Origin: Zetaproteobacteria bacterium CG_4_9_14_3_um_filter_49_83
GTDB taxonomy: Bacteria > Pseudomonadota > Zetaproteobacteria > Mariprofundales > Mariprofundaceae
NCBI GenBank assembly: GCA_002791545.1
Contig: PFXG01000055.1
Location: forward strand, 1 to 64,000
Length of the DNA stretch: 64,000 nt
Direction of reading: 5' to 3'
The notes below the pieces were generated by a model. It was not told the DNA's origin. It searched no databases and saw nothing but the letters and a program-made list of their open reading frames with translations. Below are positions 2,928-11,772 of this stretch, one piece after another. Positions within the stretch are counted from its first letter, which is position 1. The number at the start of each line of letters is the position of its first letter. The position numbers and the translations under genes were made by a program.

Positions 2928-3012
2928 GGCACATCAGTGGCTCGAAAGCGGGCCTGAGTTGACAGGGTAAAAATACGACATATTGTCCCCAACCGTTCCC
3001 AGGGAGGGGTCA

Positions 3013-4275
3013 ATGCCAGAGTCAGATGCCACATACGATGTACTTTGTGAGGTCAGAAAATGTCTGACTCAAAAAGAAATAGCTGACAGCCTAGGTGTCG
3101 ATACAAGAACCGTAAAACGCTGGGAAGCAAAAGAATGCTCCCCTCCTCCTTACGCTACTACTGCACTGCAGCGGCTCCTTCCATTCAGAAAGGATGAGAA
3201 AAAAAGAAGAAAAACAGATTTTACTTTCATTGATCTGTTTGCGGGAATCGGCGGAATCAGGCTTGGTTTTGAAGCAGCCGGAGGCCGGTGCATCTACACC
3301 AATGAATGGAACAAATATGCAGCCCAGACCTATCTCAGAAACTTCGGAAACGATCACCCGGTTGAAGGCGATATTACTGAAGTAGACCCGGAAAGCATTC
3401 CTGACCATGATGTATTGCTGGCAGGCTTTCCATGCCAGCCTTTTTCAATCGCAGGAGTATCAAAGAAGAACTCTCTGGGAAAATCCCATGGATTTGCCTG
3501 TGAAGCACAGGGCACGCTGTTTTTTGACACGGCAAATATCATTCGCCACAAACAACCTTCAGCATTTCTTCTGGAAAACGTAAAGAATCTGATGAGTCAC
3601 GACAAAGGTAATACATTCAAGGTCATCAAAAAAACACTGGTGGAAGAACTTGGCTACACTATTTTCCCTCTTGTCATAGATGCAAAAGGCTTTGTCCCCC
3701 AGCATCGTGAGAGGATTTATATCGTGGGGTTCAAAGAAAAAGTCCCGTTTTCCTGGGACTCTTTCAAAAAACCAGATCCTGCATCAAAACGAATGAAATC
3801 CATTTTGCATCCTGAGAACGGTAGCGAAACTAGTGATTTCGATTTCATGAAAGGCTACATCACCGGAAAAGATGGCCTCGTAAATGACAAGTATACTTTA
3901 AGTGACAAGCTGTGGGCTTATTTGCAGGGCTATGCAGCCAAGCATAAGGCAAAAGGCAATGGATTTGGGTTTGGTCTGGTTCGCCCGGAAGACACCGCCA
4001 GAACCTTATCAGCCCGCTACTATAAAGACGGTTCAGAAATTCTGGTGAGCCGTGGCGAAGGCAATAACCCTCGCAGGCTAACACCAAGGGAATGTGCAAG
4101 ACTGATGGGATATCCTGATGATTACATTATCCCTGTTTCAGACACACAGGCGTATAAGCAGTTTGGAAATTCAGTTGCAGTGCCAGTCATTAAGGAAGTC
4201 GCCCGAATTATGAAACCCTTTATCCTTCAACTGATCAAAGAAAGAAAAGAGGAAAAATTAAAAACGGCAGCCTGA
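3013..4275 (+). CDS. dcm: DNA (cytosine-5-)-methyltransferase, Dcm/EcoRII type
   Basis: Transfers methyl groups from S-adenosylmethionine to cytosine C5 in a specific site. With an EcoRII-type nuclease next door the expected site is CCWGG. The N-terminus carries a helix-turn-helix (LTQKEIADSLGVDTRTVKRW), as in the Dcm/EcoRII group. The ordered C5 motifs are all present: DLFAGIGGIRLGFEAAGG (I), GFPCQPFSIAG with the catalytic Cys (IV), LLENVKNL (VI), QHRERIYIVGF (VIII), a variable target-recognition stretch around residues 250-350, and YKQFGNSVAVPV (X). I took the ATG at 3013, preceded by GGGAGGGG, over an upstream TTG. The stop overlaps the vsr start. The N-terminal HTH may autoregulate the operon. 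Confidence 0.95.
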   Translation: MPESDATYDVLCEVRKCLTQKEIADSLGVDTRTVKRWEAKECSPPPYATTALQRLLPFRKDEKKRRKTDFTFIDLFAGIGGIRLGFEAAGGRCIYTNEWNKYAAQTYLRNFGNDHPVEGDITEVDPESIPDHDVLLAGFPCQPFSIAGVSKKNSLGKSHGFACEAQGTLFFDTANIIRHKQPSAFLLENVKNLMSHDKGNTFKVIKKTLVEELGYTIFPLVIDAKGFVPQHRERIYIVGFKEKVPFSWDSFKKPDPASKRMKSILHPENGSETSDFDFMKGYITGKDGLVNDKYTLSDKLWAYLQGYAAKHKAKGNGFGFGLVRPEDTARTLSARYYKDGSEILVSRGEGNNPRRLTPRECARLMGYPDDYIIPVSDTQAYKQFGNSVAVPVIKEVARIMKPFILQLIKERKEEKLKTAA

Positions 4276-4733
4276 TGACTGATGTACACAGTAAAGCAAC
4301 ACGCAGCAAAAATATGGCTGCGGTTCGCAATAAAGATACCAAGTCGGAATTACTGGTTCGCAAAGCGCTGCACCGGCTGGGATTCAGATACCGTTTGCAT
4401 GATCGGAAGCTTCCAGGAAAACCAGACCTTGTGCTTCCTAAGTATAATGCCGTCATTTTCGTACACGGTTGTTTCTGGCATCAGCATGATTGCCACCTGT
4501 TCAAATGGCCTTCAACGCGTGAGGAGTTCTGGCGAGAAAAAATCGAAGGTAACAGGACCAGAGATATTGAATCCATAAAGCAACTACAATTAATGGGCTG
4601 GCGAGTGCTTACTATTTGGGAGTGCTCCCTGAAAGGAAAGTCACGCTTGCCAATTGATGATCTGTTATCAATAGTGAGTAACTGGATAGTAGAGGGATCA
4701 GACGAACAGGAGGTTCGTGGAGAGAACAAATGA
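4275..4733 (+). CDS. vsr: Very short patch repair endonuclease Vsr
   Basis: A 152-residue protein matching Vsr in full length. Vsr nicks 5' of the T in T:G mismatches that arise when 5-methylcytosine deaminates within the Dcm site, starting very short patch repair. Recognisable features are the N-terminal TRSKNMAAVRNKDTKSE block, the GFRYRLHDRKLPGKPDLV segment with the catalytic Asp, and the zinc/active-site block FVHGCFWHQHDC. The ATG overlaps the dcm stop (TGATGA), and its own stop overlaps the start of the nuclease gene, so dcm, vsr and the nuclease are translationally coupled. Confidence 0.95.
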   Translation: MTDVHSKATRSKNMAAVRNKDTKSELLVRKALHRLGFRYRLHDRKLPGKPDLVLPKYNAVIFVHGCFWHQHDCHLFKWPSTREEFWREKIEGNRTRDIESIKQLQLMGWRVLTIWECSLKGKSRLPIDDLLSIVSNWIVEGSDEQEVRGENK

Positions 4734-5929
4734 ATGATGCAGTCGATGAATGGCTCGATACAGTTTCAGGGAATGACCGAGTTTGGTTTGCTAAACGATT
4801 GTCCGCAAACGACTCCGGAGCAACAGCCAGCCATCAGGCTGGCATCTATATTCCCAAGCCCGTGTTGTGGACAATCTTCCCCTCTATGAAGATAGGCAGC
4901 AATCCGGATGCGTGGTTTTCAGCAGAGGTCATGCCTTATGGAGAGAGCCGGAGTCTGCGGGCAATTTGGTACAATGAAAAAAGCCGCAATGAAAGCAGGA
5001 TCACCCAATGGAACAGGCCTAACCGAATCCTTGAACCGGATCAGACGGGCGCATTAATCTTATTCGCTTTTCAAAAAAGGACATCAGAAGAAGATGCCGA
5101 ACATGTATCTGCCTGGATCTGTCAGTCGGAAACAGAAGAAGAGATAATCGAAAATCGGGTGGGCGCCGTTGAGCCTGGAGAAGGAACCCTCCATTACCCT
5201 GCCGGTTTTATTGATGACAAATCATCGCTTATCCAACCCATCATGCGTAAAGACTGCACACTTGCCGAAAGCGACATTCCTGATGCATGGGTTGCCAATT
5301 TCCCATCTGGCCAGGAGCTGATAGAGCATGCGTTATCGTTAATGCCAAAAACCGGGACCGGGCCGGATGCCAGACTTCTATCGCGGCGCGAATGCGAGAC
5401 AGCCCTGTTTTACTCTGTAGAGCGTTCTTTTGTCCTTCCGAAAATAATAAAAGGTTTTTCGAGTGTTGACGCATTCGTCGATTTAGCCAACTCGGTAACA
5501 AATCGCCGCAAAAGCCGTGCGGGAAGATCTTTTGAATTGCATTTGAAAGGCATTTTCCAGGAAGAGGCACTTTCATTTTCCCATGGAGAAGTTTCAGAGG
5601 GGAATAAAAAACCGGATTTTTTATTCCCCTCCATTGAGGCCTACCGTGATGCAGCCTGGCCTGAAAACAAGCTGCGCATGCTTGCAGCCAAAACCACATG
5701 TAAAGACCGCTGGAGACAAATTCTGAACGAGGCTAACCGCATTGCCCCCAAGCATCTTGTCACCCTGCAACAGGGGGTCTCGGAAAATCAGTTCCGTGAG
5801 ATGGGAGAAGCGGGGGTGGTTCTGGTTGTCCCGAAAAGATTACACTCCAGCTATCCCGAAGTAGTTCGCCCAAACCTGCAATCACTGGAGCAATTTATTC
5901 AAGAAACAAAAAGCATCAGCGAAGCATGA
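4730..5929 (+). CDS. Type II restriction endonuclease, EcoRII family
   Basis: A 399-residue protein with the two-part EcoRII architecture: an N-terminal effector (B3-like DNA-binding) region of about 170 residues and a C-terminal PD-(D/E)XK nuclease. The catalytic region shows KKPDFLFPS (Asp near 296) and MLAAKTTCKDRWRQIL (Lys near 321), the spacing seen in EcoRII. The length is close to EcoRII itself (about 400 residues). EcoRII is a type IIE enzyme that needs two CCWGG copies. Here it completes a dcm-vsr-nuclease operon and overlaps the vsr stop by 4 bases. The cognate methylase upstream protects host DNA. Site specificity is inferred from the family, not read from the sequence. Confidence 0.9.
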   Translation: MNDAVDEWLDTVSGNDRVWFAKRLSANDSGATASHQAGIYIPKPVLWTIFPSMKIGSNPDAWFSAEVMPYGESRSLRAIWYNEKSRNESRITQWNRPNRILEPDQTGALILFAFQKRTSEEDAEHVSAWICQSETEEEIIENRVGAVEPGEGTLHYPAGFIDDKSSLIQPIMRKDCTLAESDIPDAWVANFPSGQELIEHALSLMPKTGTGPDARLLSRRECETALFYSVERSFVLPKIIKGFSSVDAFVDLANSVTNRRKSRAGRSFELHLKGIFQEEALSFSHGEVSEGNKKPDFLFPSIEAYRDAAWPENKLRMLAAKTTCKDRWRQILNEANRIAPKHLVTLQQGVSENQFREMGEAGVVLVVPKRLHSSYPEVVRPNLQSLEQFIQETKSISEA

Positions 5930-5980: not shown

Positions 5981-7042
5981 TTATGCTAATTCTTCTGCAA
6001 TTTTTTTAACATCAAAGTCAGGTTGTCCCTGCCTAGCGTAATAAGCGGAGAACCGTGCCAACAAATCTTTAATAAATGGAGATGCCACTTGCGCAGACGG
6101 GGCGTCAAACTCGGAATCAATCTTTTCTTTGGGAAAGGCATTTACCCATCGAAAATTCACCACCCCGCCTTGAAAGAAAGATGTTTCAGGTAGCCAGTGA
6201 TAATAGTCTGTTTCATTATTCTTTAGAACCTTCTCTATCCGAGATTTCTTCTTCGATAGATTTGTAATTCCTACAAGAGCAGACTCTTTTACCACATCAA
6301 ATTTCTCTATTCCGCAAATCAAGATTCGGTCAGTTTTACATTTACCATCTGCTCTTAGAACCAAGTCACATGGAGGCGATAAAACAATAGAAAATCCATT
6401 TCCATCTTTATATTTCAGAATGCTTCCTGTTCGTAGCTCCGTTGCCATAGGTGGTGAGACGTACATTTCCTGAGGAAACGCATGACTCTCTCCTTCGAGC
6501 AATTCTTGAATATGGCTTACAACATGGCGCAAAAGCCCATTCTCAGTTTCAGCGACTTTCGCATGGTCCACCCAAGAGTTTATGTGTGGGATAATATTAT
6601 CCCAAAATATTTTCCCCATTGCTTCTTCTATTTTTCCGCGACCGCCCATAATTTTTGTGAGGCCAGTGGAATAAATACCTAATAAATACTCTAAAGCGGC
6701 ATCCATCCCTTGATCTCTCGTAAAAACTTGAACACATGCATTCAGATCAGAATCTACTTCCTGCGGTGTTCCTGTAAGTACTGCCAATGGAATTCTATAA
6801 GAGGAGTGAACTTTTCGAATCACATCATTACCCTTCTCTTCATCCGAATTGTCTAATTTTAAATCAACTATTGCCGCATCGAATGAGCCATTGAGTTTAC
6901 TTAACGCCTCCTCAAGGGAGGAGGCGTACTCACAATCCATCGGCATGTTTTTTTCGCGCATTATCCGAGCAATTGTTGGCTTATAATTATTTTCGACCTC
7001 GTTTAAGTCATCTTCAACGATCAGTAATTTGAAATTGCTCAT
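5981..7042 (-). CDS. Response receiver protein with unknown C-terminal effector domain, paired with dual-GHKL kinase
   Basis: A 353-residue protein. The first 125 residues form a receiver domain: LLIVEDD with acidic residues 10-12, the likely phosphoacceptor Asp60 in AAIVDLKL, and LAVLTGTP. The usual final Lys-Pro is replaced (FTRDQG). The remaining 220 residues have no DNA-binding helix-turn-helix. They contain a SPPCDLVL block followed by conserved-looking beta-rich sequence (KTDRILICGIEKFDVV) and a C-terminal helical end (FIKDLLARFSAYYARQG). I do not recognise this domain; I recall similar receivers described for predicted conflict systems. The start overlaps the kinase stop (ATGA), so the two are co-expressed. 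The gene is convergent with the EcoRII-type nuclease 51 bases away and appears AT-richer than the core genes. Confidence 0.75.
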   Translation of the reverse strand: MSNFKLLIVEDDLNEVENNYKPTIARIMREKNMPMDCEYASSLEEALSKLNGSFDAAIVDLKLDNSDEEKGNDVIRKVHSSYRIPLAVLTGTPQEVDSDLNACVQVFTRDQGMDAALEYLLGIYSTGLTKIMGGRGKIEEAMGKIFWDNIIPHINSWVDHAKVAETENGLLRHVVSHIQELLEGESHAFPQEMYVSPPMATELRTGSILKYKDGNGFSIVLSPPCDLVLRADGKCKTDRILICGIEKFDVVKESALVGITNLSKKKSRIEKVLKNNETDYYHWLPETSFFQGGVVNFRWVNAFPKEKIDSEFDAPSAQVASPFIKDLLARFSAYYARQGQPDFDVKKIAEELA

Positions 7043-9204
7043 TCCTCATCCCCTTCTTCAGGCTGCATCCTGAAATATGCTCCAGTTTCCGATGAAAATG
7101 CCTTCAGCATCAAACCATTTCTTGCTGCAGCTTCCCCCGCAATAGCGAGGCCTAACCCCGTCCCTTCCGGCTTGGTTGAGAACTCAGGATCGAAAATAAC
7201 GCCATTGTTTATAAGAGACTCTTCAATTCCTGGACCACTATCCCGATAGTCCATATGAATCAATTTCCCATCCTCTGATTCGATCTGAATATCAATCCAT
7301 TTTTCCTGAATATCCTTGTGATCCATCCAGAATAAACTGTTATCTATCAGATTTGTAAGGATGATATAAATATCCTGATTCCAACCGAACATAGTCACCA
7401 ACTCATTATCAGCAGCAATATTTACAGTTACCTTTGATTCTTTAATTTCGTGATCGAAAACTGATACGCTCCCCCGGATCTCATGCAGCAGGTCAAAATC
7501 TTTTCTGTTTGCTCTACGACCTGAAGCCAATGGATCAATACGTTTAAAGAGTGAAACGAATATCTGAGAGTTGTCAGACATCCCGCGCATGATTGTTTTC
7601 ATTTCATCCAATGCTTCCCTATCATTTTTCTCAGCAAGAACACCTGCCCAATATCCAAAATTCTTGATTTGATTCGTAAAGAACCCGAGGGGTTTACGGC
7701 CTTCGTGAAGAACCACCTTAACAATTTTTCCTAAAGTGGCTTGCCCTTGGTATATGGCCACTGTCTGTTTGATATCTTCAGAAAGTTTATTGGACTCTTT
7801 TTCCTTCTCATCCAATAACGCCAGAACTTGATTCGATGTATTTTTATCTACTCCGCCCTTGTTAAGGGTCTTTCGTACACTCTCCTTGATCTCCTCGAAG
7901 GAGAACAAGCGCTCAAACTCTCGTTCCACCTTCAGGGTTTTGCGGCTAAGCCCGGCTTTCTTTCTATATTCGAATCGTTTGGTTTCTAGACTGGAAATTA
8001 TCTCTCCAGTAATTGCCCTTAATCTTTTGTAAGCACCATTATCTTTAAGGCCATCACGGGCACTCTTTTCTTCTAATCCGGAAAGCTCTTCAGATTGTAT
8101 CTGTACATATCCTATGACCTGATTAGAGCCAATTCGCATTGAAGGATTCTGAACTCTCTGTTCATTTAACTTAAGCCAATCAAAGTCAGCATCTCCCAAT
8201 GGCCTGATTCTGAATCCATTTCTGTAGACACCGATGCCATTAGATCTGTCCAACAACCTTCTTGCTTCCAGCTTTCCGACATAATTTCCGTAAGGATCAG
8301 TCAATCCGCGTTTAATAATGGCATCAATTGCATCGGGTTCGCGATCATAAACACGTATATCAAGTTTAAGGATTCCACACCCTGTGGATTGATCTAAATC
8401 AAACTCCATTGACTCATCCAATGTGTTTTTTGCTTTCTGATTGGAAAATGTAAGCTTTCCTGTGCCATCAGAATTAATTGAGCCACTAATCCTGTAATCA
8501 TATAAATCAAAAATTGGGAAAGGTTCGATTTCCTTATCTTGATTATATTCTTTATCGTCACCTTCCCAGAAATTATCGCACTTAAGGTGGATCACAAATG
8601 ACTGTGTATTCTCAGAATGGTACTCAACCGGGGAGATAAGTTTCTTCAGTTCATATTCAAGAGTATCCAGCTCCCCATCCTGCCAAAGCTCAATAACTTC
8701 GGAAGGAGCCGTCATTGTAAGCTTGGTTCCATTTGATGCTGCAGTAGGTCTGGTTTCAACCAATATCTCCACATCATCCAAATACTCTGCTTTCTCAAAT
8801 AAGTCCCATTGAACAACAACAGTGGTTTCATTGCCTTCAGCTACCGTTTCCATCGAAAGGTCTGCTCCTAACAATGCTGCAGCATACCGTCCGATGCCTT
8901 TACGGCCCTGCATTGTCCTGCCTCCGGGACTAGCCTTTCGCTTCAATTTGTCATCTGTGGAAGGAACGAGCCATTTATTAATAACAGTATCCCTTGTCAT
9001 GCCATGACCAGAGTCTTCAACAGTAATGATCAAACGATCTCTTTTCTCGGGAACAGAAAATGAAATTGTCACATCAGGAGAGTCCGCATCGTATGCGTTT
9101 TTCACCAGTTCGATAACCGCAGCATAATGGTCCTGAATCAGGTCACGTCCTATGGTAAGAAGGTGTCGGCCTGCTGGTCTTATCCGGTGTGAATCATCTT
9201 CCAT
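7039..9204 (-). CDS. Histidine kinase-like protein with two GHKL ATPase domains (Hsp90/MORC-like plus kinase)
   Basis: A 721-residue soluble protein without membrane segments. The N-terminal 200 or so residues are an Hsp90/MutL/MORC-like ATPase: ELVKNAYDAD (Asn36), VEDSGHGM (62-69) and GRKGIGRYAA (about 97-106). A middle region of unknown fold follows, then a coiled region. The C-terminus is a true kinase core: H-box VLHEGRKPLG with His about 500, N-box ILTNLIDNSL, G1 YRDSGPGIEE and G2 GTGLGLAIAG. So it carries two nucleotide-binding domains and an intact phosphoacceptor His. The ATG at 9204 has GGGAG upstream; a GTG at 9213 is the alternative. It is coupled to the receiver gene. Its position between a restriction operon and an Abi gene suggests phage defence, which is inference. 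Confidence 0.8.
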   Translation of the reverse strand: MEDDSHRIRPAGRHLLTIGRDLIQDHYAAVIELVKNAYDADSPDVTISFSVPEKRDRLIITVEDSGHGMTRDTVINKWLVPSTDDKLKRKASPGGRTMQGRKGIGRYAAALLGADLSMETVAEGNETTVVVQWDLFEKAEYLDDVEILVETRPTAASNGTKLTMTAPSEVIELWQDGELDTLEYELKKLISPVEYHSENTQSFVIHLKCDNFWEGDDKEYNQDKEIEPFPIFDLYDYRISGSINSDGTGKLTFSNQKAKNTLDESMEFDLDQSTGCGILKLDIRVYDREPDAIDAIIKRGLTDPYGNYVGKLEARRLLDRSNGIGVYRNGFRIRPLGDADFDWLKLNEQRVQNPSMRIGSNQVIGYVQIQSEELSGLEEKSARDGLKDNGAYKRLRAITGEIISSLETKRFEYRKKAGLSRKTLKVEREFERLFSFEEIKESVRKTLNKGGVDKNTSNQVLALLDEKEKESNKLSEDIKQTVAIYQGQATLGKIVKVVLHEGRKPLGFFTNQIKNFGYWAGVLAEKNDREALDEMKTIMRGMSDNSQIFVSLFKRIDPLASGRRANRKDFDLLHEIRGSVSVFDHEIKESKVTVNIAADNELVTMFGWNQDIYIILTNLIDNSLFWMDHKDIQEKWIDIQIESEDGKLIHMDYRDSGPGIEESLINNGVIFDPEFSTKPEGTGLGLAIAGEAAARNGLMLKAFSSETGAYFRMQPEEGDEE

Positions 9205-9423
9205 CAAATACACTCCCTACACAATTGGGGGTAAACCTTGTTTCGCGCATTTTTACCCCTCCATAATCAAAAAGCTCTCCAAAGAGTGCTGCAATCAAAC
9301 ATAATTGGCAAATGCCTCGATCTCATTCCGGGCAGGCATGATTAAATGATTTTTTACGAATACAAATGGCTGCACGACTTACTGTAATGGGGTCAAACTT
9401 AACATTTGCACATTCTTCCTTGG

Positions 9424-9451
9424 TTAAAGGGGACGCTTCCCTTTTTTTAGG
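9424..9451 (+). repeat. Direct repeat copy 1 with hairpin (AAAGGG..CCCTTT)
   Basis: The sequence TTAAAGGGGACGCTTCCC followed by seven T and AGG occurs here and again at 9581-9606. It can fold as AAAGGG/CCCTTT with a short loop and ends in a T-run on the plus strand. It lies just downstream of the partial second copy of the Abi 3' end, as the other copy lies downstream of the intact gene. It may be a terminator, or a short mobile-type repeat carried with the duplication. Confidence 0.6.
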
Positions 9452-9461
9452 CTATTGATGC

Positions 9462-9578
9462 TCACGTTTGACCTCCAGCAGCAGGAACATCCCAGAAAGG
9501 ATCGTCCTGCCAGTCGGGCAGAAAACCCATCCGTGCTTGTGGCACATCGGTATGCTTTGCCATTAGGGCAATAAGCCG
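9462..9578 (-). pseudogene. Remnant 3' end of a second Abi_2 gene
   Basis: Read on the minus strand, this stretch encodes 38 residues (RLIALMAKHTDVPQARMGF ... DDPFWDVPAAGGQT) followed by TGA. They match the last 38 residues of the intact Abi_2 protein next to it at 28 positions by my count. There is no start codon or upstream coding sequence: the copy begins abruptly at the repeat at 9581. It is therefore the surviving tail of a paralogous, diverged abi gene, not an assembly artefact of an identical repeat. Confidence 0.75.
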
Positions 9579-9580
9579 CG

Positions 9581-9606
9581 TTAAAGGGGACGCTTCCCTT
9601 TTTAGG
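9581..9606 (+). repeat. Direct repeat copy 2 with hairpin (AAAGGG..CCCTTT)
   Basis: Second copy of the 9424-9451 element (TTAAAGGGGACGCTTCCC, T-run, AGG), shorter by two T. It marks the junction between the truncated Abi tail and the 3' end of the intact abi gene. Recombination between such repeats could have deleted the body of a second abi gene. Confidence 0.6.
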
Positions 9607-9616
9607 TTGTTAGCGC

Positions 9617-10561
9617 TCATGTTTGCCCTCCCGCAACGGGAACTTCCCAGAACGGATCATGCTGCCAGTCGGAAGGAAATCCCATCTGCGCTTGTGGTAC
9701 ATCGGCATGTCTGGTCATCAGCGCAAGCAGTCGCGCTTTCCAGTTTGAGTACGGATTAATCTTCAGCATCAGACACTGAACCATGCATAGACAGGTATAC
9801 AGTTTCTGGCGATTCCCTACATTATGGGCCGCCCATGCGATACGAGAAATGTGCGGGAGTTCGGGGTGGTAGATCAGTTTGCGATTCCACAGGCGACCAT
9901 GATGTGCACAGGTGTTTCGCAAAAGACATACCGGCTTGAACCATGAACGGAACAAGGCCACCGGGATGCCGAATTTCCCGGCGATACGGTAACGCGCATC
10001 TTTCACCAGTTGATTGCCCGCATCCATGTTCAGAAAAATGCGCTCCAGCTCTCCGACCGTCATTACCTCTACCATCTTCCAGCTTGGAGGCAGCGCCAGA
10101 TAGTTTTCGCGGTGATGCTTCATAAACTCTTCCTGAGAGTGGCGACAAATTTTCTTGATACGCGCTATTTCATCCACATGCGAAAACCTGTCACTCTCCC
10201 TGAACAGGCTGGCATCGGCATACCAGCCGGGGCCGGCGGCGATTGAAAACGCATAGGCAATGGCAGCGCGAATGGCGACTTCGATACGCTCGATTGCATC
10301 AAGCACCAGTAAGCGAAGTTCGCGGTCAAAGGTATACAGGTTGAGCATGTCGTCAAAACTGACGCCGGGGCGATAGCGATGGTCGGCAGAGTCATCCACC
10401 TGCAAGGCTCTGGCATAAATACTCAGGCGATAGTAGCTGATATAGCTCAGATAATGCCTTGCACGATCACGGTCCGGTACAGCCATGCCTCGCCGGACGA
10501 ACAGATCAATCTGCTCATCAATGCCAAGGGCCGGTTTGCTGTATGACTGTAATTCAGGCAT
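9617..10561 (-). CDS. Abortive infection protein, Abi_2 family (AbiD/AbiF-like)
   Basis: A 314-residue protein of the Abi_2 family, HEPN-like proteins linked to abortive phage infection and thought to cleave RNA. Family hallmarks are the N-terminal SKPALGIDEQIDLFVRRGM, YLSYISYYRLSIYARAL, the YTFDRELRLLVLDAIERIEVA block, and the C-terminal LLRNTCAHHGRLWNR, which contains the HEPN RX4H motif (Arg about 215, His about 220). I chose the ATG at 10561. The TTG at 10576 lies inside the loop-distal arm of a terminator hairpin. No ribosome-binding site precedes the ATG, because the terminator T-run abuts it, so translation may depend on read-through or on the upstream RNA. A diverged copy of its last 38 codons lies just downstream. 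Confidence 0.85.
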   Translation of the reverse strand: MPELQSYSKPALGIDEQIDLFVRRGMAVPDRDRARHYLSYISYYRLSIYARALQVDDSADHRYRPGVSFDDMLNLYTFDRELRLLVLDAIERIEVAIRAAIAYAFSIAAGPGWYADASLFRESDRFSHVDEIARIKKICRHSQEEFMKHHRENYLALPPSWKMVEVMTVGELERIFLNMDAGNQLVKDARYRIAGKFGIPVALFRSWFKPVCLLRNTCAHHGRLWNRKLIYHPELPHISRIAWAAHNVGNRQKLYTCLCMVQCLMLKINPYSNWKARLLALMTRHADVPQAQMGFPSDWQHDPFWEVPVAGGQT

Positions 10562-10613
10562 AAAAAAACCCGCCAAAAATGCGCTTCAGTGAGAGGCGAG
10601 GCGGGTGTTGATA
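10562..10613 (-). ncRNA. Putative Abi-associated small RNA ending in a terminator at the abi start codon
   Basis: On the minus strand a short transcript would start near 10613 (GGGGTATCAACACC...) and end in the hairpin ACCCGCC (10600-10606) / GGCGGGT (10568-10574), followed by seven T that run directly into the abi ATG. A well-spaced promoter lies just upstream. The stem loop of about 25 bases contains CTCACTGAAGCGC. The layout (promoter, about 50-base RNA, terminator, toxin-like gene) resembles RNA-antitoxin systems, and I recall small RNAs being reported with AbiF-type genes. The RNA itself is inferred, not observed. Confidence 0.6.
10568..10606 (-). terminator. Rho-independent terminator overlapping the abi 5' end
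   Basis: A 7-bp GC-rich stem (ACCCGCC/GGCGGGT) with a 25-base loop and a T-run at 10562-10568 on the minus strand. It sits before the abi coding region, not after a gene, so it would separate a leader RNA from the abi mRNA. Confidence 0.65.
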
Positions 10614-10619
10614 CCCCGC

Positions 10620-10648
10620 AGTATAGATTCGGATTGGTGTCATGGCAA
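10620..10648 (-). promoter_or_regulatory. Sigma-70 type promoter for the abi small RNA
   Basis: Minus strand: -35 TTGCCA (10643-10648), exactly 17 bases, then -10 TATACT (10620-10625). Transcription would start about 7 bases on, near 10613, at the GGGGTATC preceding the terminator hairpin. Confidence 0.6.
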
Positions 10649-10860
10649 TCAAGGGCCAAAAAGGAGACACCTCCCTGTTTTCCTGAAAGAACATCATAAT
10701 TCCACTGCCGCAGCTTGATTCTACATGAATCCATAAACTCCCCCGTTCAGCAGCGGACTATACGACCTTCTGATGCGATTACATCATCCATGTGAATGAA
10801 AGAGTAAAATTAATTTATTACTGGAGGGAAAAGTTGGTTTCCGGTTTGAGTGAATTAGAT

Positions 10861-11772
10861 TTAATTCGGCCTGAACGGAATCCACTTCGGTAATGGTTTT
10901 CCCCCCAGTTCAAAGACGGCCAGACCGGCGATAATCAGTACGGCTCCGGCAATAATATTGAAGGTGATGACTTCCTGATTCAGATAATGCCCGAGCAGCA
11001 GTGAGGTGACCGGCGTCATCAGTGAAATCAGTGCAACGCGGGTGGCTTCGACGTGTTTCAGGACGTGAAAATACAGGGAGAAGCCGAACACCGAGCCGAA
11101 CAGGGCGAGGTAGACGATGGCAAGGCTGTTATGTGCCGGAGCCGCGCTGACGGCTTCAAATGTGGCGTGAAAATCGGGCAGCGTCAGCAGCCATGTCAGA
11201 ATAAACAGCGGCGTGGCAACACAAAGGCTGCCGGCTGTCATGCTGATGCCCGAGACTTCGGCCCGCACACGTTTCACCCAAACGGCAGAAGCCGAATGCA
11301 TCATGCTCGATAGCAGTACGGCGCAGACGCCCAGTGTGGCGGATAATCCCCAATGCAGGCTGCTGGCGAAAATCATGATGAGTCCGGCAAAGCCGATAGT
11401 CATGCCGCTGATGCGGTGGCGCGTCAGTATTTCACCCTCCAGCCAGAACGAAGCCATGATGGCGGAGAAAATCGGTGTTAGTCCGAATAGCAGCGATACC
11501 CAGCCGGAGGGAATCAGCAGTGCTGCCCAGTAGACGGCCAGCATGCCGCCATAAATGCCAAGTCCGCCATAAAGATAAGCCAGACAGGCTTTGCGATGCC
11601 AGACCATTTTGTTTCGCATCAGGGCGGAAAAAATAAAAATCAGCACTACGCCGAGCAGCATGCGGCTGCCCACACCGAAGACGAATCCGGCAACCTGAGC
11701 ACTCCAGGCAATGGCGAGCGGCGTGGTACTCCAGATTAGAACTACACCGAAATAGGCGAGTGGTATGGGCAT
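10861..11772 (-). CDS. EamA/DMT-superfamily transporter
   Basis: A 303-residue membrane protein of the drug/metabolite transporter superfamily with about ten hydrophobic segments arranged as two EamA repeats (first from FGVVLIWSTTPLAIAW; second from LGVCAVLLSSMMHSASAVWVKR). Typical end features are YLALFGSVFGFSLYFHVLK and LMTPVTSLLLGHYL. Members export amino acids or other small metabolites; the substrate cannot be told here. I start at the ATG at 11772, with AAGGAT upstream, not at earlier in-frame codons that would run into the preceding gene. It is the last gene of a minus-strand series beginning with the YihY gene. Confidence 0.85.
   Translation of the reverse strand: MPIPLAYFGVVLIWSTTPLAIAWSAQVAGFVFGVGSRMLLGVVLIFIFSALMRNKMVWHRKACLAYLYGGLGIYGGMLAVYWAALLIPSGWVSLLFGLTPIFSAIMASFWLEGEILTRHRISGMTIGFAGLIMIFASSLHWGLSATLGVCAVLLSSMMHSASAVWVKRVRAEVSGISMTAGSLCVATPLFILTWLLTLPDFHATFEAVSAAPAHNSLAIVYLALFGSVFGFSLYFHVLKHVEATRVALISLMTPVTSLLLGHYLNQEVITFNIIAGAVLIIAGLAVFELGGKPLPKWIPFRPN

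Follow-up and report, generated by a model that had tools for sequence, protein, structure and literature searches.

At 9617–10648 of the DNA analysed here (64,000 nucleotides, called the window below), a candidate small RNA gene ends exactly at the start codon of an Abi_2 gene on the minus strand. The question raised by this locus is whether the two form a toxin-antitoxin pair, as proposed in an earlier reading of the letters alone (the original prediction), or whether the element is only a leader of the gene, a chance arrangement or a guide RNA. Judged by similarity to known families and by analogy with characterised systems, the locus very probably carries a complete module of AbiF and abiF RNA, which would serve in phage defence as a type III-like toxin-antitoxin unit. 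It is a module of a known kind with a conserved zero-spacer variant and not a new system.

The AbiF Protein

The toxin gene (9617..10561, minus strand) encodes 314 amino acids plus a stop codon. The predicted start is the ATG at 10561, and an in-frame TTG upstream is a possible alternative. The translation matches the full Pfam model of Abi_2 (PF07751, positions 1–184) with 170.9 bits at a cut-off of 25.6, and PADLOC calls the ORF AbiD with 232.8 bits. The only meaningful match among solved structures is PDB entry 8vz6, an Abi family protein (E 2.6e-57, residues 7–306). The HEPN RNase motif R-phi-x-x-x-H is intact: the sequence RNTCAHH (residues 215–221; 9899..9919, minus strand) aligns with RNSCCHH of 8vz6, including the catalytic R and H. 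By its sequence, the window protein is related to the solved AbiF over its full length, and the similarity to 8vz6 settles the AbiF fold. In AbiFCd, the Clostridioides difficile homologue, the R and H of the corresponding motif are required for toxicity (PMC12373285); by analogy with such characterised homologues, the window AbiF would be a toxic RNase.

Fold and Family of the Small RNA

The predicted RNA (10562..10612, minus strand, as for all of its parts) has 51 nt and would serve through one fold as both antitoxin and intrinsic terminator, an assignment that draws on the Rfam family RF03085, the family model R1 described below, identity between loci, folding and covariation. The minimum and centroid structures are the same, with ACCCGCC/GGCGGGT around CGC/GCG, and the fold has a z-score of −3.6, which was equalled by 0 of 200 shuffles. 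The outer stem P1, seen in both the fold and the covariation, comprises 7 bp between ACCCGCC (10600..10606) and GGCGGGT (10568..10574); its 3′ arm occupies the usual position of a ribosome-binding site. The arms of the inner stem P2, CGC (10596..10598) and GCG (10582..10584), come from the Rfam alignment and the covariation analysis. The end of the P2 5′ arm and the P2 loop carry the family signature CCTCTCA (10590..10596), which is identical to the RF03085 consensus and conserved in our alignment of relatives. A run of seven T (10562..10568), present likewise in loci L028, L029, L032 and L036, shares one T with the seventh base pair of P1, and the 3′ end of the RNA, GGCGGGTTTTTTT, is flush with the ATG at 10561. 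The fold is as originally described, namely a segment of about 50 bases with a 7-bp GC hairpin and seven T touching the abi ATG. This hairpin escaped a simple terminator scan because its 25-nt loop (with the inner 3-bp helix) is over the limit of that scan. A competing hairpin, GCGGG/CCCGC, appears in a 71-nt fold begun upstream of the start and was rejected, its 5′ arm preceding the conserved +1 A and lying outside the RNA.

At the gathering threshold, Rfam gave no match in the whole window. In a permissive search of 601 bases with 4227 families, the abiF RNA family RF03085 ranks first with 23.6 bits (E 0.085), below its gathering score of 37, and the match (10605–10568) spans the full model, positions 1–37 of 37. 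When RF03085 was run alone on the 2.68-Mb genome, this site was the only match (E 0.091), and the one full-length AbiF gene of the genome begins 7 nt away. Because the sole match adjoins the sole full AbiF gene, coincidence is not credible. The RNA is filed as a divergent member of RF03085, with its position and conservation as independent evidence. It resembles the family in the full-length match, the CCCGCC stem, the CCUCUCA signature and the place before an Abi_2 gene, but differs in a 7-nt joining segment, CAUUUUU instead of the consensus CAAAUC, and in having no spacer to the ATG. The RNA of an alignable relative, L054, whose AbiF is 33% identical, reaches 50 bits with RF03085, above gathering. 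Low-scoring matches elsewhere (for example L007, L010, L012–L018, L020 and L026) were set aside as probable chance; no Abi-like translation follows them, and many lie inside other ORFs.

The Promoter

On the minus strand, the −35 element TTGCCA (10643..10648) and the −10 element TATACT (10620..10625) are separated by 17 nt, and the predicted +1 is the A at 10612. The promoter scan returned exactly TTGCCA-17-TATACT, with 10 of 12 consensus matches, but about 0.8 sites as good are expected by chance in the scanned stretch and the match alone therefore proves little. The stronger evidence comes from a comparison of five zetaproteobacterial loci: the window, L028 (genome G070), L029 (G048), L032 (G061) and L036 (G062). 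Of these, G070 and PEWE01000029 (L003) are apparently one assembly. In all five, TTG is equally placed, the spacer is 17 nt, the −10 element reads TATACT, TATGAT, TATAAT, TATAAT or TATAGT at identical spacing, and the +1 A keeps its position relative to the promoter. The DNA farther upstream (−170 to −91) has a pairwise identity of only 25–38%. We judge the promoter to be real because TTGnnn, the 17-nt spacer, TATnnT and the +1 A are fixed while the DNA upstream is unrelated; the promoter given in the original prediction is present at 10648–10620.

Conservation and Covariation

The five zetaproteobacterial loci have the layout RNA, seven T and ATG in common. Their RNAs are 98–100% identical in pairwise comparisons (0–1 of 51 bases differ), and nucleotides 31–270 of abiF are 59–77% identical. 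Between the three intact genes, 53, 72 and 64% of fourfold-degenerate sites differ, whereas the corresponding RNAs differ at 0, 1 and 1 of 51 bases; purifying selection is therefore stronger on the RNA than on the protein.

Across Pseudomonadota, an alignment of 11 sequences (A2) shows that P1 covaries. Two-sided changes occur at four of its seven pairs (nine such cells), and 98% of cells are paired, as compared with at most 51% when the stem is slid along the alignment. The covariation score is 0.284, against 0.090 for shuffles (none of 500 reached the observed score) and no more than 0.069 for slid stems. P2 forms in all sequences of A2 but is invariant and lacks covariation support. Model R1 was built from A2 and gives the window RNA, itself in the training set, 68.9 bits. 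It finds a single copy there, and no tandem antitoxin repeats were found in 9000–11000.

The original prediction had suggested a covariance search upstream of other Abi_2 genes. R1 and Rfam matches were found before most other AbiF genes, with R1 detecting the RNA at most others of Pseudomonadota; several of the R1 hits are training members and match by construction. A lack of conserved RNA structure before related genes had been named as grounds for rejecting the prediction; the search found such structure. In the AbiF tree, all 21 AbiF proteins with the RNA sit in branches whose sampled intact members carry it, and the seven proteins with no RNA match form one group; the RNA assignments of L058, L060 and L065 in this tree are by eye or weak. 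The scan of species contigs gave one close relative, further relatives came from whole-genome searches, and the scan of the viral collection found none. In G192 and G219, R1 also matched simple palindromic terminators at about 35 bits, and these matches were rejected.

The Junction with the Toxin Start

In all five loci of the window's branch, the T-run directly adjoins the ATG. At the other RNA-bearing loci, about 10–40 nt lie between the T-run and the start codon, often with a GGAG-like sequence, and a spacer is also present in a second zetaproteobacterial AbiF type (L030, L031 and L033). Only this zetaproteobacterial branch thus shows the variant with zero spacer and no separate ribosome-binding site; it is stable there, being present in all five loci. 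Because the RNA and the start are both fixed, selection on the junction itself cannot be read from the data.

The statement that the abi ATG has no Shine-Dalgarno sequence holds for a separate site but needs qualification. The only Shine-Dalgarno-like bases are GGCGGG in the P1 3′ arm, 7 nt before the ATG, and their anti-Shine-Dalgarno complementarity (−5.8 kcal/mol) is weak, being reached by 22% of random positions; a hidden site in the arm was rejected and is kept as an idea only. Folding of the RNA, or AbiF bound to the leader, might perhaps limit translation as well. We consider it conceivable but rather unlikely that the antitoxin RNA is the toxin's only translation-initiation region, that leader-bound AbiF represses its own translation and that orphan RNAs provide immunity in trans against incoming AbiF modules.

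RNA without Toxin

In the sample of 399 genomes, 23 R1 matches scored 42 bits or more, of which 22 are assessable after that in G337, where the contig end cuts the toxin gene, was set aside. In 10 of the 22, the toxin is broken or missing although the RNA is intact, a split that is approximate because fragments too diverged for tblastn would escape. The RNA is followed by only about 12 codons in G054 and by a 66-residue ORF in G031, whose last 55 residues are 78% identical to the end of the full AbiF of G016. An in-frame loss of residues ~14–257 leaves 68 residues in G046, AbiF ends at ~80–90 residues in G062, and in G061 the first ~135 residues precede unrelated sequence. The remaining cases are G120, G123, G097:C83, G138 and G281. 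In G126, a remnant of one unit precedes a whole unit. Within the RNA-bearing branches, there was no sampled intact toxin without the RNA.

Decay that begins with the toxin is expected of a toxin-antitoxin pair because a cell that lost the RNA before the toxin would pay a cost. The same pattern would arise if the RNA were selected for immunity on its own. The survival of the RNA beyond the toxin, together with the lack of RNA-less intact toxins in the RNA-bearing branches, is indirect genetic support for an antitoxin role in this group.

Two short ORFs, at L021:1544–1750 and L005:1543–1743, encode HEPN-less mini-AbiF proteins of 68 and 66 residues with an abiF RNA upstream. They have no Pfam match and are either decay products or functional small proteins. 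At L032:1501–2115 (G061), the sequence after ~135 abiF codons resembles the end of a YoeB/Txe toxin in a reading of the translation.

Proposed Mechanism and Alternatives

By analogy with characterised homologues, AbiFCd/RCd22 and PbAbiF, the module would work as follows. From one σ70-type promoter, a short RNA would be transcribed and adopt the abiF hairpin. The outer stem of this hairpin, together with the T-run, would stop most transcripts, giving an abundant 51-nt RNA, and occasional read-through would give the toxin mRNA. AbiF, a HEPN RNase, would bind the RNA as a HEPN dimer and be kept inactive. Phage or stress that lowers the free RNA would then release the RNase and arrest the cell. 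Transcription, the termination ratio, RNA-protein binding, toxicity and defence are all transferred from these homologues.

The proposal that an RNA gene precedes an Abi_2/HEPN toxin gene expressed by read-through, as in RNA-antitoxin systems, gains support from the RF03085 match, the homology to 8vz6 and the likeness to the AbiFCd layout. The conserved element might instead be a cis-acting leader only, an attenuator or terminator of abiF transcription with no separate RNA function. P1 and the T-run do form a terminator within the leader, and the C. difficile RNA also terminates in cis. However, termination depends on a strong stem and a T-run and not on a fixed loop, whereas the loop and linkers are conserved like the stem among the orthologues and the CCTCTCA signature recurs across the abiF RNA family. 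With the RNA staying intact where the toxin is gone, and the family acting in trans in C. difficile, we regard a leader-only role as improbable. That promoter, hairpin and T-run came together by chance, or terminate something upstream unrelated to the Abi gene, could be argued from the chance expectation for the promoter and from how common hairpins with T-runs are. In five genomes with unrelated upstream DNA, however, this 51-nt element and an identically spaced promoter always stand at the abiF start; together with the R1 and Rfam matches before most other AbiF genes and the covariation, this comparison already refutes such a reading, to which we give practically no weight.

The third alternative treats the abiF RNA as a guide with which AbiF finds target RNA, as Cas13 does with its crRNA. 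In its favour are the view of AbiF as an ancestor of Cas13 and an earlier suggestion of a guiding role, but the RNA is near-invariant between loci, with no variable spacer-like stretch, and the characterised homologues behave as inhibitors. The window gives no hint of guided targeting, since no part of the RNA varies, and this alternative is very improbable.

Relation to Known Systems

In C. difficile, the AbiF system has a promoter, an abiF-motif RNA, a terminator and a read-through toxin, and neutralisation by direct RNA binding was shown experimentally (PMC12373285). This pair, AbiFCd/RCd22 of prophage phi027, resembles the window in the promoter, structured RNA, terminator, read-through toxin and RN-C-H HEPN motif (PMC12373285). 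RCd22, however, is 98–132 nt long, carries two abiF motifs and terminates at a hairpin distinct from them, whereas the window RNA has one motif that doubles as terminator, and AbiFCd has its own ribosome-binding site with the ATG 168 nt from the transcription start, in contrast to the missing spacer in the window (PMC12373285). Binding and inhibition of the toxin by the RNA, shown for AbiFCd (PMC12373285), would by analogy apply to the window pair. Entry 8vz6 is the PbAbiF-AbiFr ribonucleoprotein (Zilberzwige-Tal et al. 2025, as cited in PMC12737573 and PMC12373285); the window AbiF matches it over residues 7–306 with the R and H aligned, but the sequence is clearly diverged.

ToxIN-type (type III) systems likewise have an RNA antitoxin upstream of an endoribonuclease gene with a terminator between, a trait present here as P1 and the T-run. 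They differ in the ToxN fold, the window having a HEPN fold and a single non-repeated RNA motif, and because there is no tandem repeat array, the locus is called only "type III-like."

Neighbourhood and Repeats

The abiF gene forms one edge of a defence cluster. This includes type I methylase-like and RhuM-like pieces (303–1625, from reading of translations), a Dcm-Vsr-EcoRII-type cluster (2983–5929; EcoRII by Pfam, names up to 4733 from reading of translations) and a GHKL ATPase gene with HATPase_c_3 and HATPase_c ends (7039–9213), which overlaps the gene after it (5981–7042), itself a weak match to a receiver domain. The last two are possibly an unnamed defence pair. In a reading of the translations, the genes from 10.9 kb on look like housekeeping genes.

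The abiF 3′ end occurs a second time in diverged form (9444..9580, minus strand), 77% identical to 9599–9735, which suggests a replaced or deleted tandem abiF. The ORF at 9462–9620 in this copy keeps a 39-residue AbiF tail only, in places closer to the tail of the remnant in G046, another genome. A 24-nt palindrome-like repeat, GTTAAAGGGGACGCTTCCCTTTTT (9580..9603, no strand assigned), has an exact second copy at 9423–9446, one after each abiF tail. Its core is REP-like, with 11 genome copies (up to two mismatches) as compared with 0 for the reversed control, and it recurs after the G046 remnant.

In other genomes, RNA-abiF units, whole or decayed, often lie upstream of type I hsdR (L055, L053, L057, L034, L130, L005, L126 and L123), a placement that resembles that of PrrC-type guards. 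The gene order in G016 and G031 is abiF, fic, hsdR.

Implications

The distribution section of the AbiFCd study names alpha-, beta- and gammaproteobacteria, and Zetaproteobacteria are not among them (PMC12373285). The link to Cas13 that the original prediction mentioned is real in the literature: the HEPN domains of Cas13an group with AbiD/F, noted as co-occurring with RF03085 (PMC12165695), and the AbiF-Cas13 connection is attributed to Zilberzwige-Tal et al. as cited in PMC12373285 and PMC12737573. AbiF-RNA modules are the proposed starting point of RNA-targeting CRISPR (Cas13). The locus described here would be a minimal version of such a module, in which a single motif serves as antitoxin fold, terminator and toxin leader, and should be useful for comparative work on AbiF.
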